Shown here: piece by piece, positions 7,522 to 19,771 of the stretch | Layout of the letters: each line of letters opens with the position of its first letter | Position numbering within the stretch: the stretch's first letter is position 1 | DNA from: a virus | Virus record (IMG/VR): IMGVR_UViG_3300038441_002363 | Location: 1-20,283 of that record | Strand: one strand, 5' to 3' | Length of the DNA: 20,283 bases | The notes under the pieces: generated by a model | Told to the model about the DNA's origin: nothing | What the model saw: only the letters and a program-made list of their open reading frames with translations | Database searches by the model: none | Position numbers and translations under genes: made by a program

Positions 7522-8727
7522 ATGGACTTCGCCCTGCCTGTTCCTCTGGATGAGAACGAGACGCCGGAGACGGCGCCCCTAAGCGCTGTTGCGCCCATCA
7601 ATCCACTGATGGCGCTTTTCCTGAAGCAGCAAAAGGAGCAGCAGGAGCGCCAGAGGCGGCAGGAGGAGGCGAATTCCGTCATTCGTGAGGACGTGTCCCG
7701 TCAGCGTGGACAGGCCCAGGCGCTGAGGAATGTGGCGCTGATTTCGTCCTTCGGGGCCAATCCTCTGCTGCGCGGGCTGCAGGACGAAACGGGCAACCAG
7801 GGTGCGCAATTGGAGGGGCTTGCGGCTCGCTCTGAGGTTCGGATTGCCCCTCCCGAGGGGCGCGGTATTGACCCTCTTGGCATTGCCCGCCTCCAGCAAC
7901 TCGCGGAGTACCAGAAGGGGCGGCTTGAACTCGACCACGAGAAGGAAGCACGCCAGAAGGCCGAGGCCGAAGCGAAGAAGGCGGCAGCGGAAGCCAAGGC
8001 AAAGGCCGCGACGGCGAAGGCTGCGGCAAGTGCCGCTGAGAAGGCCAAAAAGGAGGAGGATAAGCGGGCGGAGGTCATGTGGAAGTCTGCGGAGTCCATG
8101 CGCAAGGAATTCTCAAACCTCCCGGACGTGAAGGACTTCACTGAATTCGAGGACTCCTACAAGGGGCTCCAGTCTGCCCTCAAACGCCCGGGTGGCGTGG
8201 GAAGTGCGGCGGCCATCTTCAACTTCATGAAACTGATCGATCCTGGCGTAGCCGTCATGGAAGGTGACGTGGATCGCATTCGCGCGTCGGCGGGACCTGC
8301 GGCCAAGTTCGCCGACCTCTACGAGTACGCCAAGTCCGGCAACACCCTGCCTGACACCGTGCGCAAGGAGTTGGGAGGCATGGCGGACGAACTCTACGGC
8401 ATCCGCAAGGAGCGCCATGATGGACGCCGCAAGCAGTATGAGGGCCTCGCCAAGAAGAGGGGCGTGGATCCGGACAGTGTTCTCCCTCCGGTGTTGTCGC
8501 CTGCCATGGAACCGCCACAGCGCACGCCCGCCCACCAAGCCATGCCTCCAGGCCCCGGAGGCTCACTCCTGCTCGGCCCGCCGCCAACTGCGCCCAAGAC
8601 GGGTGGCAACACGGTGCGCGTGAAGGTGAATGGGCAGGAATTGCCACCCATGCCACGTGCCAACCTGGAAGAGGCGAAGAAGCGCGCGGCCGCCAAGGGC
8701 TACACGCTTGAGGTGATCGATGGCTGA
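7522..8727 (+). CDS. Internal virion (ejection) protein with long coiled coil
   Basis: This is a 401-residue protein. Residues about 30-60 are a Gln/Arg/Glu helix. Residues about 130-190 form an extreme Ala/Lys/Glu-rich helix (KAEAEAKKAAAEAKAKAA) that should be a single long alpha-helix. A conserved-looking globular part follows (about 195-290) with MRKEFSNLPDVKDFTEFEDSYKGLQ, then FNFMKLIDPGVAVMEGDVD. I recognise this pattern from predicted podovirus internal core proteins. The C-terminus is Pro/Gly-rich and ends in a small LysM-unlike beta segment (VRVKVNGQELPPMPRANLEEAKKRAAAKGYTLEVIDG, positions 8614-8724). The last 8 nt overlap the next gene. Injection of such proteins into the cell envelope with the DNA is known for podoviruses; the role here is inferred. 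Confidence 0.6.
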   Translation: MDFALPVPLDENETPETAPLSAVAPINPLMALFLKQQKEQQERQRRQEEANSVIREDVSRQRGQAQALRNVALISSFGANPLLRGLQDETGNQGAQLEGLAARSEVRIAPPEGRGIDPLGIARLQQLAEYQKGRLELDHEKEARQKAEAEAKKAAAEAKAKAATAKAAASAAEKAKKEEDKRAEVMWKSAESMRKEFSNLPDVKDFTEFEDSYKGLQSALKRPGGVGSAAAIFNFMKLIDPGVAVMEGDVDRIRASAGPAAKFADLYEYAKSGNTLPDTVRKELGGMADELYGIRKERHDGRRKQYEGLAKKRGVDPDSVLPPVLSPAMEPPQRTPAHQAMPPGPGGSLLLGPPPTAPKTGGNTVRVKVNGQELPPMPRANLEEAKKRAAAKGYTLEVIDG

Positions 8728-10675
8728 GCCCAAGTCCATCGCCGATGAATTCGCAGACCTCACGGACGCCAAGATCGCTGACGACTTCTCCGATCTACTT
8801 GAGACGCCTGCCACTACTTCGCTCCAGCGCCTCAAGGCTGTTGCGAAGCAGCGCCCACCCGCCAAGGACCCCGGCTTTCTCTCCACTGTGGGACATGGCC
8901 TCCTCCAGGGATTCTTCAAGGGAGGCTCGGACGAGGCGGTTGGCGGACTCACGAGAGCGGGTGTTTCCCCGGGCGCCGGTGCGGCATGGCGCATGCCAGA
9001 CGGTTCCGAGGTACCCCTCAACACGGGATGGGACGTATACCGAGCCGGACGGGACACGGAACGCGAGACGTTGCGAGGTGCGAGAGAGAACAGGCCGAAG
9101 ACGGCTTTCGCCGCCGAGTTCCTCGGGGACCTTGCCTCTGATGCAGTGCTCAGTGGACTGGGCGTACCGGGCGTGGGCAACCGCGCCTATAACGTTGGCA
9201 CTGGCATGCTCTCTGGGCTGCTCGGTAGCGAGGCGGAACTCACGCCGGACAAGGCCACTGGCGATGATGTCTTACGCGCCGGTTTGGCAACGGCTCTTGG
9301 CGGGGCTGCTGGTGATCTCGGGACCACCATTGGCGAAGGCGCGTCGCGCGCCACGCCTGCCATGCTACGCGCAGCGCGCGGGTGGCTGGAGCGGCGCGGC
9401 ATCAACCTCGGCCGCCGCGCGCTCATGTCTGGGTCACAGCAACTCGCCGGAACGGTGCCAGTTTCCGACGATGCCGTGCGCGAAGCACTGGCCTCTGGCG
9501 CAATCCTCCCATTCGGCACGACCCAAGGCGCGGCACAACGATTGGAGAGGTCGGCGGAGCATTGGGGCCGGACATACGGGGCCACACTCCAGCGCCTTGA
9601 GGAGTTGGGAGTGCGGGGGCCCGATGCCGAGGCCCTGGCGCGTAGGCTCATTGCCGAGGGTGATGAAGAGGCCGCTGTTGCCGGGGCCAACACCGCCGTG
9701 CCGAACGTGTTTTATGGCAACGCGGACGCCATTGAGAGCAAAGTGCTGGAGCCTAGGGCGCTAGATGTCTTCGCGCGCCTTCGCTTGGCCCAGATGGGCG
9801 TTACGCCAACCACTACCTCATCGGCTGTGCGGAATGCTGGCGGCGTGTTCGACGACATTCTCAGCGGGACGGCTGTGCCTCAGAACTCCAGCAAGGAGGA
9901 GGCGCTTGCGGCACTTCGACGCCTTCGCCTCGCCCAGGCAGGAGTGACACCGCCACCAGCGGCACCAGCGGCCAAGGAGGTATCGCCGCAGGCTCCACCA
10001 CGGCTCGTGGAATTGCCGGACCGCCCTGCCGACCTGCCGCTTTCTCAAGCGGAAGGCCTCAAGCGGACGCTCCAGGGTGAGGCAAAGTACGGTAGGATCG
10101 AGGACACACCCGTCAATGAGGCGAAGCGTCGCGTCGCCAGTATGATGCGACAGGCCATCGAGGACAAAGTGGACGAGGCGGCCTTGACTGCGGCCCCGGG
10201 TTCTGAACTGGACGCCATGACGGGCGCCTTCATGCCTGTAAAGCAGCGCCTCTCGCGAACTCTTGCGGCTTCAGAGGCAGCCGACAAGGGCGCGGCAGCA
10301 GCGGCGAAGCGCGCCGGACTCAGTCTCACCGACTACCTCTGGGGCCTTGGCGCTGGCGGCGCAGGTCTGCTTGGAGGAGGCGGCGGGGGTGGCATGCTAG
10401 GCGCAGGCGCCGCGATGCTTGGACACCGCTTCCTGCGCAATCGTGGACCGTCCACTGGCGCGGCAACGGCCTATTGGGCGTCTCGCCTTGCTGGCGCTGG
10501 CGCCAATGCCGCTGCCGCAAACCCTTCTGCCACGAGAAAACTGGAAAGCCTTGCCGCATCCAAGATGCTAGGTGACCAACTGGCTCCTGTGGCGGAGGAG
10601 AACCAAGGCCGGGCCGTGCAGTCGGCCATTTCTCGCTACCTCTCTCGAATCAACGCCGCCCAGGAGAACCCATGA
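8720..10675 (+). CDS. Large internal virion / DNA-ejection protein
   Basis: This 651-residue protein is the largest in the window. It opens with MAEPKSIADEF, which closely resembles the first residues of the scaffold candidate (MAESKSIADHL). Residues about 50-200 are Gly/Ala-rich with amphipathic, membrane-active-looking segments (GHGLLQGFFKGGSDEAVGGL, LGDLASDAVLSGLGVPGVG). The middle is helical. An 11-residue element R-L-R-L-A-Q-[MA]-G-V-T-P is duplicated at residues 353-363 and 401-411. Residues about 534-575 are a very Gly-rich hydrophobic stretch (GAGGAGLLGGGGGGGMLGAGA) that could insert into membranes. No transglycosylase Glu motif was recognised. The position at the end of the internal-protein block supports a role in DNA ejection through the envelope; this is inferred. 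The stop overlaps the next ATG. Confidence 0.6.
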   Translation: MAEPKSIADEFADLTDAKIADDFSDLLETPATTSLQRLKAVAKQRPPAKDPGFLSTVGHGLLQGFFKGGSDEAVGGLTRAGVSPGAGAAWRMPDGSEVPLNTGWDVYRAGRDTERETLRGARENRPKTAFAAEFLGDLASDAVLSGLGVPGVGNRAYNVGTGMLSGLLGSEAELTPDKATGDDVLRAGLATALGGAAGDLGTTIGEGASRATPAMLRAARGWLERRGINLGRRALMSGSQQLAGTVPVSDDAVREALASGAILPFGTTQGAAQRLERSAEHWGRTYGATLQRLEELGVRGPDAEALARRLIAEGDEEAAVAGANTAVPNVFYGNADAIESKVLEPRALDVFARLRLAQMGVTPTTTSSAVRNAGGVFDDILSGTAVPQNSSKEEALAALRRLRLAQAGVTPPPAAPAAKEVSPQAPPRLVELPDRPADLPLSQAEGLKRTLQGEAKYGRIEDTPVNEAKRRVASMMRQAIEDKVDEAALTAAPGSELDAMTGAFMPVKQRLSRTLAASEAADKGAAAAAKRAGLSLTDYLWGLGAGGAGLLGGGGGGGMLGAGAAMLGHRFLRNRGPSTGAATAYWASRLAGAGANAAAANPSATRKLESLAASKMLGDQLAPVAEENQGRAVQSAISRYLSRINAAQENP

Positions 10676-10998
10676 CGCGATTTGGAATAATCCTCTGCCT
10701 GCTGGCGCTGCCTGCCATGGCGGCGGACTACGACACCGTGCCGGTCCTCACCTCGGCTACCAACGTCACGTCCGGACTCTCAAGCCAGACCGCCTATAAG
10801 ACGATCCTTGTGGAGAACGGCGGGAGCAACGCGATCTACTGCTCGCGGAATCCCAGCGTCACCACTGACGATGGACACGAGGTTGCCGCAGGCGACGCGC
10901 GCTCCTTCCCGTACGACGGTCCGCTCTACTGTATTTGCTCCGTCGCCCAGACGGGCACCGCGCGAAACCACACCATTATCTGGGGGAGTTACCAGTGA
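10672..10998 (+). CDS. Small exported phage protein, beta-rich, signal peptide
   Basis: This 108-residue protein starts in an ATGA overlap with the internal-protein gene. The first 18 residues are a clear signal peptide: basic MTR, hydrophobic FGIILCLLALP, and an A-M-A cleavage site before ADYD. The mature part is short, Thr/Ser/Gly-rich and probably a beta-sandwich, with NAIYCSRNPSVTTDDG and PLYCICSV. Three mature cysteines (in YCSR and YCICS) fit an oxidising periplasm. Similar SNAIYC-type folds occur in phage fibre or head-spike proteins, but those normally lack signal peptides. It is first of three overlapping genes that all carry export signals. The function is unknown; an exported fibre-like domain is a possible reading. 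Confidence 0.62.
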   Translation: MTRFGIILCLLALPAMAADYDTVPVLTSATNVTSGLSSQTAYKTILVENGGSNAIYCSRNPSVTTDDGHEVAAGDARSFPYDGPLYCICSVAQTGTARNHTIIWGSYQ

Positions 10999-11630
10999 CG
11001 CGCCGCGCATCAGCGCTTCTTGCCGGTGTGGTGCTGACGGGCCTCAGCGGAATTGGCGCCGCCATCTTTTCGTCCGTCGGCGCCACCGCTAACCCGTTCT
11101 CCGGTCCATTTGGTAGCAGCGGCGGTGGGTCCAGCGTCGTGCGGACGGGTGAGGATTTTGTGCGCGTTGGACTCGGCGAGGATGTCTCGTACGAGCACGT
11201 TACCATCACAGGTACGTCGTCGTCTGCCGACGCACTGACGATCCTTAGTGGACGCATCCGAATGGCACCAAGCACCGTGAGCTCCGGCGCGATCTTCTAC
11301 TTCGACCCGTCCATTGGATTTGTGCTCAATGGCCAACTCAACATCGCCCCAGGCGGGCCTGTTTTCGCCGACTACCTGCTGCCGCGCCAGAACAGCCTCC
11401 CTGTGACGGTTGGAGACTCGGACGGCACCGTGTTCGCCTGCCAATCGTCCCCGGGCACATGCGATGCCGCGCACAAGGGAGCAGTGCTGTGCGTGAATGA
11501 GTCCGCAACAAGTGCCACCCGTCTCTGTAGGTGCATTCTCACGGCCAGTGGAGGGGACTACCGCTGGTTGAACATGGACACCGCCACTAGGGGCTCAACC
11601 ACAACCGACTGTCCGGACACCGCGCCATGA
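10995..11630 (+). CDS. Exported Cys-rich fibre-like protein
   Basis: This is a 211-residue protein. The GTG at 10995 lies in a GTGA overlap with the previous gene and is preceded by GGGGGAG at a good distance. The longer frame from 10935 is inside that gene. The N-terminus (TRRASALLAGVVLTGLSGIG) is a basic start followed by a hydrophobic stretch, so it is a signal peptide or anchor. The rest is beta-rich with Gly/Ser linkers. The last ~75 residues contain six cysteines (ACQSSPGTC, VLCVN, RLCRCIL, DCPD) and end in DYRWLNMDT. This resembles C-terminal head or knob domains of phage fibres. The combination with a signal sequence suggests a disulfide-stabilised protein displayed on, or secreted across, the membrane. 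The role is inferred. Confidence 0.6.
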   Translation: MTRRASALLAGVVLTGLSGIGAAIFSSVGATANPFSGPFGSSGGGSSVVRTGEDFVRVGLGEDVSYEHVTITGTSSSADALTILSGRIRMAPSTVSSGAIFYFDPSIGFVLNGQLNIAPGGPVFADYLLPRQNSLPVTVGDSDGTVFACQSSPGTCDAAHKGAVLCVNESATSATRLCRCILTASGGDYRWLNMDTATRGSTTTDCPDTAP

Positions 11631-12247
11631 AATGCTCCACAATCGCCGCCGTAGCACTGTGCCTCACAACGATGAGCGCCGAAGCCGCACAGCGCCGCGC
11701 CTGGGTGGCCGTGGGTGATTCGATCACCTATGGGTACGCCCATGATGCAACCCCATATCCAGTGCGCCTCTCCGAGTTGCTCGGGGTGCCGGTTGCCAAC
11801 ATGGGCATCGGCGGAGACACGGCTGCCAACATCAACACGCGGTTCACCTCCTACGCACTCCCATATCCGTACAAGGGCGTCATCATCGAGGAGTGCCTCA
11901 ATGATCTGATCGCCGGAACCTCTGCGACGACGTGCTGGGAAGCAACAGCGACGGCAGTGGATGCGGCTCTCGCTGAGGGCTTCCTCGTCGTCCTCGTCAC
12001 CGCCATCCCCTGCGGGAATTACGTGGGGTGGAACGGCACCAAGGAGACGGAGAGGGGAGTTTACAACCTCAACGTGCGAACAAAGGCCGAGTCTGACCCC
12101 GCCCACATCTTCCTTGTGGACCTCGACGAGGTGGTGTCAGACGACGGAACCACGATCAAGGCCGCCTACGATTATGGTGACGGACTCCACTTGGACGGCG
12201 ACGGAATGCAGGCGCTGGCGCAAGCGGTGGCCGACGCGATTCAGTGA
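11627..12247 (+). CDS. Exported SGNH (GDSL-type) hydrolase / acyl esterase
   Basis: This 206-residue protein starts in an ATGA overlap. Residues 1-20 form a signal peptide ending AEA. The SGNH blocks are visible. Block I is VGDSITYG with the nucleophilic Ser. Block II is NMGIGGDT with the oxyanion Gly. Block III is EECLNDL, which has the Asn but lacks the usual Gly of GxND. Block V is DGLHLDGDG with the Asp/His pair D-x-x-H. The protein is therefore expected to be an active serine esterase that removes acyl groups, often O-acetyl, from glycans. The substrate is unknown. Export points to the periplasm or cell surface, where LPS, capsule or peptidoglycan acetyl groups would be candidates. Alternatively it is a virion enzyme that borrowed a secreted host gene. 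Confidence 0.82.
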   Translation: MKCSTIAAVALCLTTMSAEAAQRRAWVAVGDSITYGYAHDATPYPVRLSELLGVPVANMGIGGDTAANINTRFTSYALPYPYKGVIIEECLNDLIAGTSATTCWEATATAVDAALAEGFLVVLVTAIPCGNYVGWNGTKETERGVYNLNVRTKAESDPAHIFLVDLDEVVSDDGTTIKAAYDYGDGLHLDGDGMQALAQAVADAIQ

Positions 12248-12267: not shown

Positions 12268-13860
12268 ATGCCCCGCCGCCCCGTCCCCGCCACCGCGCAG
12301 ACCATGGCTTTCCCGGCACCCATCGGTGGACTCAACACCGTGGCCACGGGCACGGCCATGCCGCCAGAGGATTGCGCCCTGGTGTGGAACCTCATCCCCG
12401 CTGAGTCCGGCCTGCGCGGCCGGTTGGGGTACCGGGAGTGGTGCACGGGCCTCACGGGCAGCACCAATGACAGGGTGCGCTCCCTCATGGCCTTTGCGGG
12501 GAGTGAGCCCTCTCTCAACCGCCTCTTCGCCACGACGGACACAGGCATCTACGCTGTTACCACTTCCTCCGGTTCGCCCAGTACCGCCTACTCGTTTGCC
12601 GTCTCCTCGGGGGATGCAGGGTATGGCGTTTTTCGGGTGGTGGTTACCTCTGGCGGGCACTTCGGCCTGTACTGCGACGAGGTGAATGGCCTGCACGTCT
12701 ACACCCAAACGGGGAGCAGTTGGGCCGCAGTGCCCATGGGGGGAAGCCCGGGACAGATTGCCAACGTGGACCCGGACAGCCTCGTGCACGTCACCGTCTT
12801 CAAGCGACGGATCTGGTTCACGGAGAGGGACACAGCATCCGCATGGTACCTCTCTGCAGACGCCATTTATGGCACCGCCACGGAATTCAATTTCGGCACC
12901 CAATTTCGCCAAGGCGGGCACCTCGTTGGCCTCTACAACTGGAGCTACGACGGCGGTGCGGGCATGGATGATGCCCTTGTCGCCATCTCCTCGGGTGGGG
13001 ACGTGGTGGTGTGCCAGGGGTTGGACCCGTCGGACCCAGACTCGTTCAACGTGAGGGGCGTGTGGACTATTGCTCCGCCCCCCAAGGGCCGTGAAATTGC
13101 CTATGAGGTGGGTGGTGATCTCTGGATCCTCTCTGGCAATGGGGTGATCCCCATTTCCCGCCTCGTGGTGGGTTCGGACAAGGCGTACGAGACGGCGAAG
13201 ATCTCCAACCTATTCAACGCCCTCATGCTCACTCGACGGCAGGCACGCGGTTGGAGCATGCGCCTGCACCCCGAGGACAACGCTCTCCTGGTGCTGTACC
13301 CGGACTATTCTACGGAAACCGGCCAGTGCCTCGCCCAGAGCCAAGCAACACGTGGGTGGTTTCGCTACCGCAACCTGCCCATGCACTGCGCCGCTGTCTG
13401 GGAGGGGAGGCTGCATTTCGGGACGCTGGATGGGCGCGTGTGCGTGGCGCGGGACTACTTGGACAACGTAGGGCGAGCCGATCTAAGCACCTATGAGCGC
13501 GTGGACTGCACCCTCATTCCTGCCTTCCAGCGCGCGAGAGGGAACCGCGTTTCCCTCAAGCAGATTCGGGCCCTCATTCTCACGGATGGCGCTACGCCCA
13601 ACGTGAGGCTGGAGGCCCGGTACGACATGGACTTGAGCGAACTCACGGAGCCGGAGGAGTCCGTCAGTACCGCCCCCAACATTTGGGATACGGCCATTTG
13701 GGATAGCGACGTGTGGGGCGGGGATTCGGCAAGCGTCAACCCTCTCCAGGGCGCCCTGAGCATAGGGCACTCGGCTTCTGCCGCCATCCGCCTCCAACCC
13801 CTCGGCCGCACCACTCTTGTCCAGTTGGAAGCCCAATACGAGGTAGGAGGATTCCTGTAA
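12268..13860 (+). CDS. Tail tube / hub-like structural protein
   Basis: This is a 530-residue protein. It begins, after a short leader, with AFPAPIGGLNTVATGTAMPPEDCALVWN. This opening is characteristic of a large podovirus tail protein family related to tail tubular protein B or tail hubs. Repeated beta-propeller-like blades follow, for example LFATTDTGIYAVT, FGLYCDEVNGLHVYTQ, VFKRRIWFTE, DALVAISSGGDVVVCQG and GRLHFGTLDGRVCVA. NIWDTAIWDSDVW near residue 475 is a Trp-Asp pattern I also recall from this family. The start is not certain: ATG 12268 lacks a good ribosome site and ATG 12304, just before AFPAP, lacks one too. A 20-nt gap separates it from the esterase. It should sit below the adaptor in the short tail. 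Confidence 0.78.
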   Translation: MPRRPVPATAQTMAFPAPIGGLNTVATGTAMPPEDCALVWNLIPAESGLRGRLGYREWCTGLTGSTNDRVRSLMAFAGSEPSLNRLFATTDTGIYAVTTSSGSPSTAYSFAVSSGDAGYGVFRVVVTSGGHFGLYCDEVNGLHVYTQTGSSWAAVPMGGSPGQIANVDPDSLVHVTVFKRRIWFTERDTASAWYLSADAIYGTATEFNFGTQFRQGGHLVGLYNWSYDGGAGMDDALVAISSGGDVVVCQGLDPSDPDSFNVRGVWTIAPPPKGREIAYEVGGDLWILSGNGVIPISRLVVGSDKAYETAKISNLFNALMLTRRQARGWSMRLHPEDNALLVLYPDYSTETGQCLAQSQATRGWFRYRNLPMHCAAVWEGRLHFGTLDGRVCVARDYLDNVGRADLSTYERVDCTLIPAFQRARGNRVSLKQIRALILTDGATPNVRLEARYDMDLSELTEPEESVSTAPNIWDTAIWDSDVWGGDSASVNPLQGALSIGHSASAAIRLQPLGRTTLVQLEAQYEVGGFL

Positions 13861-14339
13861 TGCCGACCCCAGCGCCTATTCCTCCGCCTCAACGTCACGA
13901 GCCAACCACCATCACCATGAAGGGCCTCAAGGTAGTAATCCCCACGGCCGCCATTGTCTTCGTGGCGCTGGCTATTACGCCGGGGCTTGCCTACCTCGTG
14001 GTGCCCAAGGGCGCACCGCTGGAGGCTGGCCCTGCGCCGCTCCCCGTGCCTCAGGTGCCGCTGCTCTCCTCCACGCCAGCCGCGCTGCCCATGTTGGCAA
14101 TGGCGCTGCCAGGGAAATTGCCCCCGCCCGGCCCGAACCAACTGCGCGCGGGACAATGCGATCCTGAGCGGGCGCAGGTGGAGATCAACAACGGCTGTTG
14201 GGTGCGTACGGAAACCCCACCGCCGTGCCCCAAGGGCAAGCAATGGGAGCACGAGGGCCGGTGCTGGCTGCCCGTGGCGGAGGCCAAGCCCGTGCCGACG
14301 ACAGGAGAGCCGCGAACGGCAGGGATCGCGGACCCATGA
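13860..14339 (+). CDS. Membrane-anchored Cys/Trp-rich protein resembling myxobacterial kinase-linked domain
   Basis: This 159-residue protein has its ATG overlapping the previous stop (TAATG). Residues about 21-45 are one hydrophobic membrane segment (LKVVIPTAAIVFVALAI), preceded by a short cytosolic Pro-rich part. A Pro/Ala/Leu-rich linker follows. The C-terminal domain has the pattern C-x(11)-NGCW-V...PPCPKG-x-x-WEHEGRCWLPV. I associate this pattern with short modules encoded with Ser/Thr protein kinases in myxobacteria, where the function is unknown. Finding it in a tail gene block is odd and may mark uptake of host DNA. Topology predicts the Cys domain outside the cytoplasm, where disulfides can form. 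A spanin-like or signalling role cannot be proven. A long hairpin starts 9 nt after the stop. Confidence 0.6.
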   Translation: MPTPAPIPPPQRHEPTTITMKGLKVVIPTAAIVFVALAITPGLAYLVVPKGAPLEAGPAPLPVPQVPLLSSTPAALPMLAMALPGKLPPPGPNQLRAGQCDPERAQVEINNGCWVRTETPPPCPKGKQWEHEGRCWLPVAEAKPVPTTGEPRTAGIADP

Positions 14340-14401: not shown

Positions 14402-14882
14402 TCACAGGGCCGCGTGCGCGGTGGTCCTGAAGTGCCGGTCCGGAACCGGCGAGGTCGCCGCAGCAGCAGCCATCTGCGGGAGAGCCATAGACGTTCTACC
14501 TCGGCACCGCTCCGTCTGCAAGGGTCGGCGGCGTAACTGGCGTCGGCGGGCTCCACAAGACTCAAGGCGGACAGGCCCTCCGCGTGCTTGATGAGCGCGG
14601 TGCGGTGCGCCTCTTCTGGATGGCATGCAGCCGCCGAGAGAAGGGCATTTGGCGCGTGGACGGTGATGGCGCGATGAGCGCTCGTCATGGCCCACTCGCG
14701 CAGTCCCGTCAGTGCCTCGGGGGCAAGATGTTGCCGAATGCGCCAGCGGCCAAGCATCCACGCCATCCACGACCCGTCCGGGCACGCTTCCCACCTCTCC
14801 TTGGCGCTCAAGTTCGTGTTGGCGCCCACCGCATCGCGGGTTCGCAAGCGGACTCCTCACGCAGCATCTCCAAGTAGTGCAT
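14402..14882 (-). pseudogene. Frameshifted Ala/Trp-rich protein gene of a phage-associated family
   Basis: The start ATG at 14882 has a perfect GGGAGGA ribosome site (14887-14893 on the complement), so this was or is a real gene. The first frame gives MHYLEMLREESACEPAMRW and then runs into a stop after 24 codons. Shifting by one base at the CCC run 14825-14827 (GGG on the coding strand) continues naturally as GANTNLSAKERWEACPDGSWMAWMLGRWR. A helical, Ala-rich part follows down to about 14500. A second shift there would lead to MAAAAATSPVPDRHFRTTA and a stop at 14402. The AC-x(3)-W and W-x-A-C-x(6)-W-x-x-W features match a helical, often Ala-repetitive family I recall from phages and bacterial genomes; its function is unknown. 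It is a decayed gene, or a sequencing indel in a homopolymer. Confidence 0.55.
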
Positions 14883-15026: not shown

Positions 15027-15638
15027 ATGCGCTACCTCCATGCAGTGCTTCTGCTGTGTCTCGGGTGTGCCTCTGGCGATGCGTACGAGCGCGGAGCCTA
15101 CCGTCCGCCCGTGCGTGCCCCAGTCCGCGCACCCACCACCAACCCCACGACGGATGCACCTCGCTATGCCCCGCCTGGGCATGCGCCTCAGCCCGGCGTG
15201 TATCCGCGCTCGCCCCATTCCAGGGTGCTCACATCCACGAGTGAACCGGGGATCTGGGCCAGCAGTGAGCCAGAGGCCGAGTGGTCCAGCAGCATGTGGG
15301 AGATCCTCCTGCCGGTGCCAGATCCAGCCAGCAGCGACGACAAGCGTCACGCATCTCGCTGTGGAGGAACTATGCGCCTCGCCGCAAAATGGTCCATTGG
15401 CGAGCCAGAAATGCCCATGGACGATAAACGCTGCCTCGCCGCGCTACTGTACGCCTATTGCGTGAGTGCCGACACGGATTTTCCTGAGGAGCGGGTCGGG
15501 AAATTCAAGGACGCGGCCGCCGCGTTTGTGCGCCGCTCCTGCGACGAAGAGCGCAGGCGACGAATGATCCCAACATTCGGACCAATAGCAGCTAAGTGGC
15601 ACGAGTTGTATTCGTGGTCGCGACGAGGAAGCCAGTGA
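15027..15638 (+). CDS. Proline-rich lipoprotein A with four conserved cysteines
   Basis: This 203-residue protein has an N-terminus (MRYLHAVLLLCLGC) that is a short signal peptide ending at Cys14, so lipidation is likely although the lipobox (C-L-G-C) is not ideal. Residues 20-65 are Pro/Arg/Ala-rich and flexible. EPGIWASSEP (73-82) begins a folded domain with cysteines at 112, 136, 145 and 172. This organisation is shared with lipoprotein B (16007-16633): CAS after the lipid site, YERG, a Pro-rich spacer, PGIWAS-x-EP and four cysteines in nearly the same positions. The two are paralogues. The +2 residue after Cys14 is Ala, which would allow outer-membrane sorting in many Gram-negatives. The function is unknown. 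A surface exclusion or virion-assembly role is only a guess. Confidence 0.72.
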   Translation: MRYLHAVLLLCLGCASGDAYERGAYRPPVRAPVRAPTTNPTTDAPRYAPPGHAPQPGVYPRSPHSRVLTSTSEPGIWASSEPEAEWSSSMWEILLPVPDPASSDDKRHASRCGGTMRLAAKWSIGEPEMPMDDKRCLAALLYAYCVSADTDFPEERVGKFKDAAAAFVRRSCDEERRRRMIPTFGPIAAKWHELYSWSRRGSQ

Positions 15639-15823
15639 CCGAGACGGCAGGCATTCTCCAGAATTCTCGTGCTCTTCTGGACCTCTTCGACGACGCCACT
15701 CTGCAGGCGGTGGTGGACGGCAACACCCGCCTGCTTCCAATCGACCTGCCTGTGGACGCATCCACCCAAGCCATAGCAGCAGACATCCTCAAGGAACGCT
15801 CCCCCAAGGCCCCAATCCCATGA
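15635..15823 (+). CDS. Small protein between the paralogous lipoproteins
   Basis: This is a 62-residue protein. The GTG at 15635 is in a GTGA overlap with the lipoprotein A stop, which is why I chose it over an ATG at 15596 inside that gene. The sequence is soluble-looking and mostly helical, with SRALLDLFDDATLQAVVDGNTRLLP and a C-terminal DASTQAIAADILKE. It has no cysteine, signal peptide or known motif. The stop overlaps the next ATG by ATGA. Coupled translation on both sides suggests that it works with its neighbours, perhaps as a cytosolic partner. No family was recognised. Confidence 0.5.
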   Translation: MTETAGILQNSRALLDLFDDATLQAVVDGNTRLLPIDLPVDASTQAIAADILKERSPKAPIP

Positions 15824-16203
15824 GAATCAACTTCGCCAGCAGTACCCTCAAGCCAAGCCCGCCCGGATGGCGCCTCACCTACTTCGACGGCGACGGAGAT
15901 CCCGTGGCGAGTTTCTGGGCGCCAACCAAGGAAGCGGCGATGAACCACGCTGCTGCAACCGTGCCGTCTAGGCGCAACCCACAACCCATCCCACACGAAA
16001 GGCCCCATGCGACACACCCTCCCCGTTGTCCTTCTCTTCCTCTCCTGTGCCTCACCAGCACCTTCCACCTACGAGCGTGGCACCCCCGCACGCCCTGCCC
16101 CAGCACCCACGCGCCCCGGAGTAGGCCTGCCCCTCCCGGGCCAGCCTCACTCCAATCCGGAGGTACAACCACACCCCAGGCCCAAGCGCTACCTCCCTCC
16201 TGA
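15820..16203 (+). CDS. Small protein with long 3' overlap into lipoprotein B
   Basis: The frame is 127 codons long, but only the first ~52 residues look like a protein domain (GWRLTYFDGDGDPVASFWAP, KEAAMNHAAATVP). This is a short alpha/beta piece like many small phage DUFs. The remaining ~75 residues are Pro/His/Arg-rich and lie across the start of lipoprotein B in another frame, a 197-nt overlap. That tail reads like a shadow of the lipoprotein frame. A TAG exists in another frame at about 15968, right where the domain seems to end, so a one-base shift may have removed the original stop. The start, in an ATGA overlap, is well supported; the end is not. Confidence 0.42.
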   Translation: MRINFASSTLKPSPPGWRLTYFDGDGDPVASFWAPTKEAAMNHAAATVPSRRNPQPIPHERPHATHPPRCPSLPLLCLTSTFHLRAWHPRTPCPSTHAPRSRPAPPGPASLQSGGTTTPQAQALPPS

Positions 16204-16633
16204 ACCGGACGGGAGGCCAGGAATCTGGGCGAGTGATGAACCGACTCAGCGTCCACTCGCCTTCATCTTGCTTGAACCGGTGGAGATGCCGGATGGCAAA
16301 GAAGAGGGCCTCGCGCGCCGCCACATGACGGAGTGCGCCAACGATATGAACAAGAGAGCAGATCTCGCTCGGCCGCCACCAACAACACACTTCTCCGACA
16401 TGCGGAAGGATGTGCGCAAATGCCTCGCGCACTCGCTCATGGCGGCGTGCCTCAATCTCCGAGAGATGCAGTACAAGAGTCGTGGGCCAGACACCAGTCG
16501 CTATGGTGGTATGGAACCAGCCATCAGGCTGAACAAGCGCGCGATGGAGCGCGCCTGTGAGGATCGAGAAGTGGCTGCTCTTGCTGCGCGCGAGTATGGC
16601 GTGATTCTTCCTGGATGGGTGCTGCCATGGTAA
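16007..16633 (+). CDS. Proline-rich lipoprotein B, paralogue of lipoprotein A
   Basis: This 208-residue protein has a start with GAAAGG nearby. MRHTLPVVLLFLSC is a short signal peptide with lipidation expected at Cys14 (box F-L-S-C), followed by ASPAPSTYERG and a Pro-rich linker to about residue 70. PGIWASDEP (71-79) opens the folded part, with cysteines at 110, 139, 148 and 184. These match 112, 136, 145 and 172 of lipoprotein A, including a shared C-L-A-x(5)-A-x-C around the middle pair and C-[DE]-[DE] at the last. The conserved cysteines suggest two disulfides outside the cytoplasm. The rest of the domain has diverged strongly, so the duplication is old, or the genes were acquired separately. 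The function is unknown. Confidence 0.72.
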   Translation: MRHTLPVVLLFLSCASPAPSTYERGTPARPAPAPTRPGVGLPLPGQPHSNPEVQPHPRPKRYLPPEPDGRPGIWASDEPTQRPLAFILLEPVEMPDGKEEGLARRHMTECANDMNKRADLARPPPTTHFSDMRKDVRKCLAHSLMAACLNLREMQYKSRGPDTSRYGGMEPAIRLNKRAMERACEDREVAALAAREYGVILPGWVLPW

Positions 16634-17025
16634 CGACGCCAACGCCTCCGACTGGCACGCCCTCCAGCCACGCAGACCTCGTGCTTGAGAGCATGCTTGC
16701 GTTCAAAGCAGATATGGCGTGGGCGATGGAGTGCTTGGAGTTGCTCTCTCTCGGCGTTCCGGTCGGTGGCATCCTCCTTGAACTCCGATCGGTATGCCAT
16801 GACGATGCGTGGAGAGAGCGACAGACGCCGACATGGCATCAGGCGATGGCCGAAGCCAAGAAGGCACTGGGTGAGGATGCGTGGCAGGTGAACCTCTGTA
16901 CCTACGCTCTCCGTCACCAGTGGGGACTTCCCCAACCCACCTACGAGCGACGCCTGCAGAAGGATGCGCTCGCGCAGGGCCTCTCGTGGTTGGTAACGGG
17001 AGAAGCCCCGTCCACGCCCCAATAG
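16627..17025 (+). CDS. Protein of unknown function downstream of lipoprotein B
   Basis: This is a 132-residue protein. Two starts compete: ATG 16627, with GGATGGG in front, and ATG 16615; I favour 16627, which overlaps the lipoprotein stop by 7 nt. Apart from a Thr/Pro-rich beginning, the chain is helical (LVLESMLAFKADMAWAMECLELL, WHQAMAEAKKALGED, NLCTYALRHQWGL). It has several Trp and three Cys, and no signal peptide or membrane segment. It is likely cytosolic. No domain was recognised. The tight spacing to the lipoprotein and its position just before the tail fibre suggest one transcript. Confidence 0.55.
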   Translation: MVTTPTPPTGTPSSHADLVLESMLAFKADMAWAMECLELLSLGVPVGGILLELRSVCHDDAWRERQTPTWHQAMAEAKKALGEDAWQVNLCTYALRHQWGLPQPTYERRLQKDALAQGLSWLVTGEAPSTPQ

Positions 17026-17068: not shown

Positions 17069-18145
17069 ATGCCCAGATCCGCAACAGGTAGTTACACCTC
17101 ACCCTCCTCCCAGTTTTCCTCAGGCACCACAATTTCCAGTTCCGTGATGAACGGGAAACTCAACGACATTGGGGAGGAACTCACGGACTCTCTCTCCCGC
17201 TCCGGCAAGGGGGCGATGACAGCGGCGCTCCGTGTCCCGGATGGTTCCATTGCCCTCCCCTCGTACACCTTCACCAACGAAACGAACCTCGGGTTTTACC
17301 GCCCCAGCACAGGCGTAATAACAGCAGTGGATGGTTCCACGGAGATCATGAAGTGGAGCACGGCCGAGGTGCGGGTGTACGCCGCTGCTGTGTTCGAGGA
17401 TTCTGTAGAAGTGGCCACCGGCCTTGTCATATTCGGTGGCGCCACTATCACACAAAGCACATCAAACACGGCTGGTCTTACGGCCACAGGCAATGGGACT
17501 GGCGCTGGCGTCCGTGGGGTTGGAGGCGCTACTGGGGCAGGAGGATCATTCCAGGGCGGTGCCACAAGCGGTGCAGGCATCAATGTCACCGGAGGCCCGA
17601 GTTCCACTGGAGCGAACATCACGGGCGGTTCCGGCACGTCAGCAGGTGCCGTAATCACGGGGTCTGGCGCTGGAGTGGGCGCTCAGATCGCCGCTGGCAC
17701 CGCCTCAACAGGCGCAGACCCCACCAATGCCCTGGAGCTCACCAACGGCAATTTGAAACTGAGCGGCGCCGTTCCAAACTCGAACGAGGCGCTCGCCAAT
17801 ACGCTAACTCCGCTCAACCTGCCGAAGGCATGGGTAAGGTTTCTGACAACTGGAGGCGGTTCGACTGGCACGACAGTAACGGCTGGCTTCAACATCACCA
17901 GCGTCGCTGTCAGCGGCACAACGATCACCATCACGCTAGCGAGCGCCGTCGCTGCTACTGGTGCGGCCTTCGTTACCCCCGGCAATTCCTCCAGCAACCT
18001 CGTGTTTGAGGCCACGGTTGTAGGCGCCACTGTTACGCTGGAGGCGCGTGAGTTGGAGATATCTGGAACGGCCTTTGATCTGTACAACTTCCAGACAGGC
18101 GCAGCGCGGGCCGTGCAAGTTTTGGTGTTTGGCGAGCAGGCTTAG
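17069..18145 (+). CDS. Tail fibre protein
   Basis: This 358-residue protein has a GGAAG ribosome site before the ATG. The N-terminal ~75 residues (SVMNGKLNDIGEELTDSLSRSGKGAMTAALRVPDGSIALPSYTF, positions 17142-17271) match the usual virion-attachment start of phage tail fibres. TFTNETNLGFYRPSTGVITA resembles fibre repeats. Residues about 132-215 are a Gly/Ala/Ser/Thr-rich block of GAGV-x-G-x-GG-type units, expected to fold as a narrow beta-structured shaft. The last ~110 residues are a beta-rich tip (WVRFLTTGGGSTGTTVTAGF, VAVSGTTITITLASAVAATGAAF), ending in LYNFQTGAARAVQVLVFGEQA. The tip probably binds the host surface. No chaperone or hypervariable adenine-rich repeat was found. The stop overlaps that of the convergent lipoprotein gene. 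Confidence 0.8.
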   Translation: MPRSATGSYTSPSSQFSSGTTISSSVMNGKLNDIGEELTDSLSRSGKGAMTAALRVPDGSIALPSYTFTNETNLGFYRPSTGVITAVDGSTEIMKWSTAEVRVYAAAVFEDSVEVATGLVIFGGATITQSTSNTAGLTATGNGTGAGVRGVGGATGAGGSFQGGATSGAGINVTGGPSSTGANITGGSGTSAGAVITGSGAGVGAQIAAGTASTGADPTNALELTNGNLKLSGAVPNSNEALANTLTPLNLPKAWVRFLTTGGGSTGTTVTAGFNITSVAVSGTTITITLASAVAATGAAFVTPGNSSSNLVFEATVVGATVTLEARELEISGTAFDLYNFQTGAARAVQVLVFGEQA

Positions 18146-18849
18146 CGCGTCCCAGTGAATTCCGCCGAAAATTGCCCGGTCTGGTCGCACGGACTGGACC
18201 GGGTATCATCGCCATCGGTTAGCGTAACTGAGCCATGCGAAACGATCCGTACACCATTGGCGGTTGGATATACCGTGATGTCAAAGACGAGCATGTTGGC
18301 GCGTATGGCCACGCCATCACCACAAGTGCCCCATGGCCCGGGGGGGCAAGAGTAGATACCCGTCCACGCCGCATCTGGAGCATTGGTGTACGCCAATAGT
18401 GGAACGGTCCCAGAGCCATCCGGACAGAATCCAGAGATAGATCCGTTGAAGCGGTCTGCGCTAACAAACACCGGCACGCTGTGCGACCTGCTGTAGGTCC
18501 CTCCGTTGACTGAAAGTACAGACGTCCCGAGCCACGTGCCTGCAATCTCGGTTGAGAGCGCCGCAGGCGCTGGAACCACGTCCGGACACCCGTCAGCATC
18601 CTGAAATCCGTTCCTCGTCTCAGGCTCGGACGGGCAGGCGTCGGCCGAGTCCTCGATCCCGTCTCCATCCTCATCAGGAGGCGCCTCGCAGTACGGCCAG
18701 CACCCATCGTCTGGGGGGAGGTTCTGGGCCTGCTGAGCGAGGCAGTCCTCGCAACTGGTAGGCGCCTCTGGCCCACATCCTGATGCTCCAAAAAGAGCGT
18801 ACGCAGAAACCACGATTGTAAGAAACAGCCCCCTGTACGTATTATCCAT
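18142..18849 (-). CDS. TSP3-repeat lipoprotein, short form
   Basis: This is a 235-residue protein. The ATG at 18849 is chosen for its AGGAG site 8 nt upstream; the longer frame from 18954 crosses a hairpin. YRGLFLTIVVSAYALFGASGC is a lipoprotein signal with lipobox A-S-G-C at residues 21-24. A Cys-rich stretch (SCEDC, GCWPYC) leads into one thrombospondin type 3 calcium repeat (DEDGDGIEDSADACPSEPE and FQDADGCPD). The C-terminal ~130 residues form a beta domain (IAGTWLGTSVLSVNGG ... SAEFTGTR). It is related to the domain of the next gene, as shown by W-x-GT, GFCPDGSGT, a WTGIYSCPP equivalent and an FTG-x-R end. Such modular lipoproteins are usual in myxobacterial outer membranes. In a phage they look like acquired cargo. 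Confidence 0.78.
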   Translation of the reverse strand: MDNTYRGLFLTIVVSAYALFGASGCGPEAPTSCEDCLAQQAQNLPPDDGCWPYCEAPPDEDGDGIEDSADACPSEPETRNGFQDADGCPDVVPAPAALSTEIAGTWLGTSVLSVNGGTYSRSHSVPVFVSADRFNGSISGFCPDGSGTVPLLAYTNAPDAAWTGIYSCPPGPWGTCGDGVAIRANMLVFDITVYPTANGVRIVSHGSVTLTDGDDTRSSPCDQTGQFSAEFTGTR

Positions 18850-18867
18850 GGTGTTTCTCCTGTTGAA

Positions 18868-18958: not shown

Positions 18959-19771
18959 CTACTGGCGCGCCCCCGAGAAGGTCATCACGAAGGGCTTGGA
19001 AATGCCGCACCCCGTCGCCGTACCGCTGCCAGCGGCGCCAAGGTTCCCGTTTGAGGCGGCAAGAGCGAACGACGCGCTGTTGAACGTGAAAACCACGGAC
19101 TGGCATCCTCCGGAGAAGGCCACGGGCGCGCAGGCCAGCGTGCCATCCCAGCGGACGCTGTACTGATCAGTGTAGGTGTTCGTATTCATGGTCCCGTCGC
19201 CGAGCGGGCACACGGGCACGAAGCGGACGGAAAAGCCATTGGCCGTACCATTCATGGTGCCGGTAAACTGAAGCGGGGCCTCGTTCTGCACGGTGATTGT
19301 CACCGTGCCGGACCAGCGCGCGTTGAAGGCCGGATTCACGTCCGGACATCCATCCGAGTCCTGGTAGTTGTTCACCACTTCCGCTCCGGCAGGGCAGGCG
19401 TCCTGAGAATCCGGAATGCCGTCCCGATCCCCGTCAGTGGGCGCCGGGGGTGTATCCGGGCAGCCGTCAGAGTCTTGGTAGCCGTTCTGAGTCTCGGGCT
19501 GCGTCGGGCATGAATCGTTGGTGTCAGGAATGCCGTCACGGTCAGTATCCGTGGGCGTGCTCGGCGGAGTGTCGGGGCAACCGTCCGAGTCGTTGTAGTT
19601 GTTGAACGTCTCCGGCTCATTCACGCAGGCGTCTGCGGAGTTGACGATCCCATCACCGTCTGCGTCGGCAGAACCGGGCGGCAGCGGATCCTCGCCTCCG
19701 CATCCAGCCATCCCAAGGGCATAAGTGGTAACCGCGACTGCAAGAATGAAACGTGTATTGGTAGTGTTCAT
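18959..19771 (-). CDS. TSP3-repeat lipoprotein, long form
   Basis: This is a 270-residue protein. The ATG at 19771 has GGAGGGG 7 nt upstream and directly precedes a signal peptide. The in-frame extension up to 20137 has no signal logic. [18 protein letters not shown] gives a lipobox M-A-G-C. Three thrombospondin type 3 repeats follow, beginning [28 protein letters not shown] and [14 protein letters not shown]. Each is followed by NNYxDSDGCPD or a close variant (about residues 32-143), and they should bind several calcium ions in a rigid rod. The C-terminal beta domain ([18 protein letters not shown] ... MTFSGARQ) is paralogous to that of the gene at 18142-18849. The short-form gene follows after 109 nt with a 12-bp hairpin. 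An outer-membrane or surface role is likely; the ligand is unknown. Confidence 0.82.

Follow-up and report, generated by a model that had tools for sequence, protein, structure and literature searches.

Two phage lipoproteins that have a small extracytoplasmic domain, Ltp of TP-J34 and Llp of T5, act in superinfection exclusion. The P22 exclusion protein SieA is, to our knowledge, not a lipoprotein. A structure of Ltp is cited in PMC10883804. In P22, immI and the exclusion gene sieA are located between the ejection gene 16 and the tailspike gene 9, in a region that is very variable among P22-like phages and that lies within the late operon, from which it is largely not expressed (PMC8022706). 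In myxobacteria, SitA lipoproteins carry a conserved escort region of ~375 to 500 aa joined to an unrelated C-terminal toxin domain (PMC5562445, PMC8546572). Mx8-like phages have a P22-like morphology, and a 2018 review of myxobacterial phages makes no mention of receptors or exclusion (PMC6070905). How does a pair of lipoprotein genes located beside the tail-fibre gene of such a phage compare with these systems?

The stretch of DNA analyzed here (the window) is the whole of a linear virus record of 20,283 bases (IMGVR_UViG_3300038441_002363). The major capsid proteins of Mx8 and Mx9 are 53% identical to that of the window, the p52-like neck protein of the window is 51% identical to its homologue in Mx8 and 50% to that in Mx9, and an all-ORF phmmer search returned matches in Mx8-like phages for most of the structural genes. 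The conserved Mx8 head and neck proteins are thus present, which places the window among the Mx8-like phages (Myxoctovirus relatives). By these sequence matches the window is a fragment of an Mx8/Mx9-like podovirus, bearing out the phage origin assumed in the preliminary description, and its host is most likely a myxobacterium.

Lipoprotein A (15027..15638, + strand, 203 aa) and lipoprotein B (16007..16633, + strand, 208 aa, with a Shine-Dalgarno-like GAAAGG upstream) both begin with a short N-terminal signal and a lipobox ending in cysteine, the form expected of signal peptidase II substrates. The lipid cysteine is Cys14 in both proteins, in the lipobox LCLGC in A and LFLSC in B, each followed by AS. 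The lipobox of A is degenerate, since its Cys at -3 is non-canonical and fits a PROSITE-like pattern only if Cys is allowed at that position; those of B and of a third relative described below (LLSAC) match the pattern and fit better than A. Neither protein has a transmembrane segment other than the signal. A Pro-rich linker (aa 15-73 in A, 20% Pro; aa 15-70 in B, 30% Pro) leads to the motif PGIWASSEP at aa 74-82 in A (PGIWAS, aa 74-79, 15246..15263, + strand) and PGIWASDEP at aa 71-79 in B (PGIWAS, aa 71-76, 16217..16234, + strand), and then to a predicted helical C-terminal domain (~aa 103-200 in A; four helices, aa 101-205 in B). The cysteines of A are at positions 11, 14 (lipid), 112, 136, 145, and 172, and those of B are at 14 (lipid), 110, 139, 148, and 184. 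In all of this the preliminary description was accurate: its lipoprotein anatomy, coordinates, and cysteine positions are exact, and the elements that it listed as common to A and B (CAS, YERG, the Pro-rich linker, and PGIWASxEP) are real. It had also recognized no family, and searches of Pfam, PHROGs, NCBIfam, PADLOC, and PDB sequences returned no match for either protein.

On which membrane would these proteins be displayed? According to the myxobacterial sorting rule (Lys+2, Ala+7) quoted in PMC5562445, the residues that follow the lipid cysteine are informative. At +2, each of A and B has Ala, and thus no Lys; at +7, neither has Ala. On the basis of these residues, A and B are probably displayed on the outer membrane.

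A and B are paralogues. Over their full length they align with ~33% identity (BLASTP E=3e-12), and their local alignment score of 144, compared to a shuffle mean of 39, was reached in none of 1,000 shuffles. The relationship extends beyond the linker: the C-terminal part alone, taken without the linker and the PGIWAS motif, gave a BLASTP E of 1e-4 and a Gumbel P of ~2e-4. The refuting outcome named in the preliminary description, a lack of similarity beyond the linker, was thus not observed. This C-terminal signal sits in the stretch with cysteines 1 to 3 and their surroundings (P ~3e-5). The last ~50 aa, which hold cysteine 4, align at chance level (P 0.36), and the C-terminal score is nonsignificant when the cysteines are masked. 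The alignment of cysteine 4 therefore rests on its order, its predicted helix position, and the third family member. Thus, the pair reported in the preliminary description is real and was slightly over-described on two counts. Its four aligned cysteines are supported for the first three and overstated for the fourth, and its tandem arrangement holds in the sense of nearby paralogues on the same strand, in a loose form because two ORFs (C and D) start between A and B. No duplication of a block A-C into B-E was found: the all-ORF search gave no match between C and E, and A and B are not linked by a DNA repeat. The preliminary description suggested fast divergence under selection by hosts or competing phages; with three sequences and ~33% identity, synonymous sites are saturated.

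A search with the neighboring tail-fibre protein led to another Mx8-like phage contig of 32,103 bases (IMGVR_UViG_3300003322_001065; L027), and there the search for further members that the preliminary description had called for yielded one. The gene at 10836-11588 (- strand, 250 aa) was recognized by the A/B profile with E=2.2e-9 and by a second profile search of contigs with E=4e-7, and shuffling gave P values of 3.5e-9 against A and 3e-6 against B. It has in common with A the string PRSPHxRVL...EPG(I/L)(W/Y)A, its lipid cysteine is followed by exactly four further cysteines, and it has tryptophans near the C-terminus. The spacing C2-x8-C3 is present in all three members (RRCLVTALHSIC in L027, KRCLAALLYAYC in A, and RKCLAHSLMAAC in B), with a chance probability of ~5e-4. 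Because the C-terminal similarity of the L027 protein is weaker (P ~0.01), its membership rests mostly on the signal, linker, motif, and cysteine pattern. The lipobox, Pro-rich linker, PG(I/L)(W/Y)A motif, four C-terminal cysteines, and C2-x8-C3 spacing are common to A, B, and the L027 protein, and the recurrence of this architecture in a third homologue makes the pattern a family trait. At the level of sequence, the three proteins form one small, previously undescribed family of phage lipoproteins. Phage lipoproteins as a general kind are already known; what is new in the family is a third member in another Mx8-like phage.

Pattern scans of viral and genome contigs with A, B, and their alignment gave no confirmed relative, tblastn against phages and plasmids gave none, and a final scan found only the L027 contig again. 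In the collections searched, with bacterial genomes covered by short patterns only, no relative beyond these three turned up. A PGIWASxEP match in contig L007 was rejected as a chance occurrence, as the ORF has no signal peptide and reached no better than E=0.05 with the three-member profile.

We then considered the fold of the C-terminal domain, for which the preliminary description expected the same structure in A and B with two disulfides. AlphaFold2 models were built on two-row alignments, and those of A and B used the same two sequences, so they are not independent. The model of B has a C-terminal four-helix domain at aa 101-205, with pLDDT values of 62 to 92 for blocks of aa 101-200; the model of A has four helices at similar places and is of low confidence (mean pLDDT 48). 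In both models, helix 1 carries cysteine 1 and helix 2 carries cysteines 2 and 3; cysteine 4 comes shortly after helix 3. The expected common structure is thus supported in part, by four helices in both models, and weakened by the poor model of A and the shared input. A four-cysteine C-terminal domain is consistent with all three members, each of which has four non-lipid cysteines there, and the C-terminus of A and B is modeled as a small helical domain, which is probably held by two disulfides. A Foldseek search with the B model (the A model was too weak to search) returned nothing at E<=0.001 in PDB or BFVD. A and B are, like Ltp and Llp, lipoproteins of phage origin that have a small extracytoplasmic domain; they differ in that no solved structure was matched by their sequences or by the modeled fold of B.

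A and B are located between structural genes and a tail-fibre gene. On the near side lies F (13860..14339, + strand), a membrane-anchored Cys/Pro-rich protein with a hydrophobic segment that is homologous to Mx8 p60 (phmmer 1e-7) and Mx9 p94 (1.5e-6), followed by G (14476..14847, - strand), a probable gene divergent from A whose GC3 signal extends to ~14475. ORF C (15635..15823, + strand, 62 aa), which has no family in NCBIfam, overlaps the stop of A at GTGA, and ORF D (15820..16203, + strand, up to 127 aa) overlaps C at ATGA. In a different reading frame, D also covers the first ~197 nt of B, and its extent is uncertain, as it may end earlier (e.g., by a frameshift) or truly overlap. ORF E (16627..17025, + strand), 132 aa from an internal ATG and with no phage homologue found, overlaps the stop of B at ATGGTAA. 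The three overlaps (A-C, C-D, and B-E) suggest translational coupling. Only 43 nt after E begins the tail fibre/spike gene (17069..18145, + strand), which matches Mx8 p64 (phmmer 2e-27) and the PHROG category of virion structural protein. A sigma-70 scan recognized no promoter for A and B. Beyond the fibre gene lie two further lipoprotein genes, LP1 (18142..18849, - strand), with a thrombospondin-3-like repeat, and its paralogue LP2 (18959..19771, - strand), with several thrombospondin-3 repeats.

The matches of F to Mx8 p60 and of the fibre gene to Mx8 p64 make the stretch from F to E the counterpart of Mx8 p58-p63. In Mx8, this stretch contains the lipoproteins p58 and p59, the relative of F (p60), and the antirepressor Ant; p64 is tail-fibre-like, and Mx9 p14, in a like position, is annotated as a tail fibre. 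Like A and B, p58 and p59 (annotated as hypothetical) are predicted lipoproteins in the corresponding slot before the p64-like gene, but they have no detected sequence similarity to A and B and are on the opposite strand. In P22, the immI/sieA region likewise fills a variable slot, with an ejection protein gene on one side and the tailspike gene on the other; the correspondence is of position only. SieA resembles A and B as the product of a membrane-acting accessory gene, and its exclusion role serves as an analogy; it differs in that there is no homology and in that A and B are on the late-gene strand.

Are lipoprotein genes common beside the p64-like gene? We counted them within ~3 kb of it by using simple home-made lipobox rules; the counts are approximate, as the second form of the rule missed LP1 and LP2 and the first form caught both. 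Predicted lipoproteins were present in 7 of the 9 Mx8-like phages with covered surroundings: the window (A, B, LP1, and LP2), Mx8 (p58 and p59), L009 (17069-17548), L018 (9460-9876), L019 (17736-18245 and 18242-18853), L021 (20160-20645 and 20853-21431), and L027. Mx9 and L014, the latter on a contig that reaches only ~1 kb beyond the gene, have a p64-like fibre gene and no predicted lipoprotein nearby, and L012, whose contig stops within the gene, was left out of the count. For the complete Mx8 genome this rule predicts no lipoproteins other than p58 and p59, and lipobox matches elsewhere in these phages are mostly antisense to other genes. Apart from the L027 member, the other lipoproteins beside the p64-like gene come from several families, none with detected similarity to A and B, and are mostly on the opposite strand. 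The L027 copy stands at the end of a leftward gene cluster that also includes replication-initiation, DpdA, and methyltransferase genes; it is outside the late gene cluster.

From its position, an exclusion role for A and B, which the preliminary description gave as an example, is plausible. Our preferred reading, with a probability of roughly 40% and a basis in position and anatomy, is that A and B may be envelope proteins encoded by moron genes for superinfection exclusion or lysogenic conversion. In favor of this reading are the slot, the fact that different lipoproteins recur in it, and the location of the L027 copy outside the late cluster. The signal would be cleaved before Cys14, with the lipidated N-terminus as the anchor; a disordered Pro-rich stalk of ~60 residues would lead to the PGIWASxEP motif, and the small helical domain, probably with two disulfides, would be the working end that acts on the cell envelope. 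As accessory genes in a variable slot beside the tail-fibre gene, A and B would modify the envelope of a cell that is infected or lysogenic and thereby reduce adsorption or injection by related phages or by released progeny, and two diverged copies could widen or split the target range. Several observations count against this reading. A-E are on the late-gene strand and Mx8 p58/p59 on the opposite one; because of that strand and the short distance from E to the fibre gene, late expression of A-E is possible. The lipobox of A is degenerate at -3, the sigma-70 scan gave no promoter, the window, being a fragment, lacks the integrase and repressor regions that would attest lysogeny, and Ala occupies +7 in the L027 member, a residue that under the quoted rule counts against simple outer-membrane retention. 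A more far-reaching proposal, which we consider rather unlikely, is that the tail-fibre locus of Mx8-like phages could be an interchangeable lipoprotein cassette in which the outer-membrane lipoproteins of each phage are matched to its fibre or receptor, with the A/B family as one set of such specificity factors, duplicated so that two receptors, or rival phages of two classes, could be blocked in a social bacterium.

Other explanations of the same genes have to be weighed against exclusion or conversion. Spanins are either a short lipoprotein (o-spanin) that pairs with a coiled-coil protein of the inner membrane (i-spanin) or one lipoprotein that ends in a C-terminal transmembrane segment (u-spanin). 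Pro-rich outer-membrane lipoproteins recall Rz1-type o-spanins, and A and B are on the late-gene strand, shortly ahead of the fibre gene; they might be the outer-membrane lipoproteins of a spanin-like complex or serve some other late disruption of the outer membrane. We consider this lysis role unlikely because the Rz-like spanin p68 (PHROG E=0.001) and the NlpC/P60 endolysin p72 of Mx8 are together beyond p64, away from the lipoproteins. In addition, A and B, at ~200 aa and with a predicted helical domain, have no C-terminal transmembrane segment and are unlike u-spanins or Rz1, no adjacent i-spanin was recognized, and the L027 homologue is in a leftward cluster with replication genes. The proximity of E to the fibre gene and the recurrence of lipoprotein genes beside p64-like genes could also point to a partner of the tail fibre or a late-infection envelope helper, for example in fibre assembly, progeny release, or as a virion-associated lipoprotein. 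Such a role seems quite improbable, as the neighboring lipoproteins are of several unrelated-looking families, mostly on the opposite strand, and Mx9 and L014 have the fibre with no predicted lipoprotein there.

Could A and B instead take part in social competition, as SitA-like lipoproteins passed between kin by outer membrane exchange, with C and E as immunity or partner proteins? Like SitA toxins, whose transfer and killing depend on TraA, they are probably outer-membrane lipoproteins with a disordered region after the lipobox and a phage carrier, and a small ORF lies downstream of each copy; SitA genes are found on Mx-alpha prophage-like elements (PMC5562445, PMC8546572). Unlike SitA, A and B have no escort region at 203 and 208 aa, and their C-termini are homologous and shared rather than unrelated, polymorphic toxins, which makes this role less likely; no NCBIfam model matched A or B, and the lack of a match between C and E also argues against it. 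We give it little probability. Strong divergence, patchy distribution, and the presence of several different lipoproteins in the same slot are also consistent with neutral or decaying cargo, that is, host-derived lipoproteins acquired without a phage function. This is doubtful, since the frames, signal, motif, and all four cysteines are intact in both copies and the same architecture is maintained in another phage lineage, that of L027.

For transduction in Myxococcus, Mx8 is the standard phage. Should an exclusion role hold for the lipoproteins encoded next to the tail-fibre gene, p58 and p59 of Mx8 would offer a ready genetic test. The A/B family would then represent a new cysteine-rich helical domain for exclusion, and phage conversion would be linked to traits of the cell surface in a bacterium in which outer-membrane lipoproteins pass from cell to cell.

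Several further features of these phages were observed. The repeats of LP1 and LP2 weakly resemble those of the myxobacterial proteins MtsC and TraB, and LP1/LP2 have relatives in L018 and, weakly, in L009. In L019, the lipoprotein gene at 18242-18853 (- strand) has a collagen-like GPAGPPGPAG stretch and overlaps the second lipoprotein gene at 17736-18245. The DpdA-family gene of L027 (13098-14129, - strand; Pfam E=8e-39) suggests 7-deazaguanine DNA modification in that phage. A signal-peptide-like start, odd for a virion protein, is present on the p64-like homologues of Mx8 (L003, 23911-24984), L012 (16624-17255), and L027 (~7940-9059) and is absent from the window copy. The p52-like neck gene comes after the p57-like gene in the window (12268-13860) and in L008 (7450-9030), and it is directly 3' of the p51-like gene in Mx8, Mx9, L009, and L027; by gene order, the structural module is rearranged in the window and L008. 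Mx8 p52 (L003, 13980-15590) and phrog_5107 are annotated as amidase and the Mx9 homologue is classed as a head-closure protein; the amidase label looks wrong. Finally, the window encodes at 11627-12247 a GDSL/SGNH hydrolase (Pfam E=6e-18); its N-terminus resembles a signal peptide, and it is a weak homologue of Mx8 p67.
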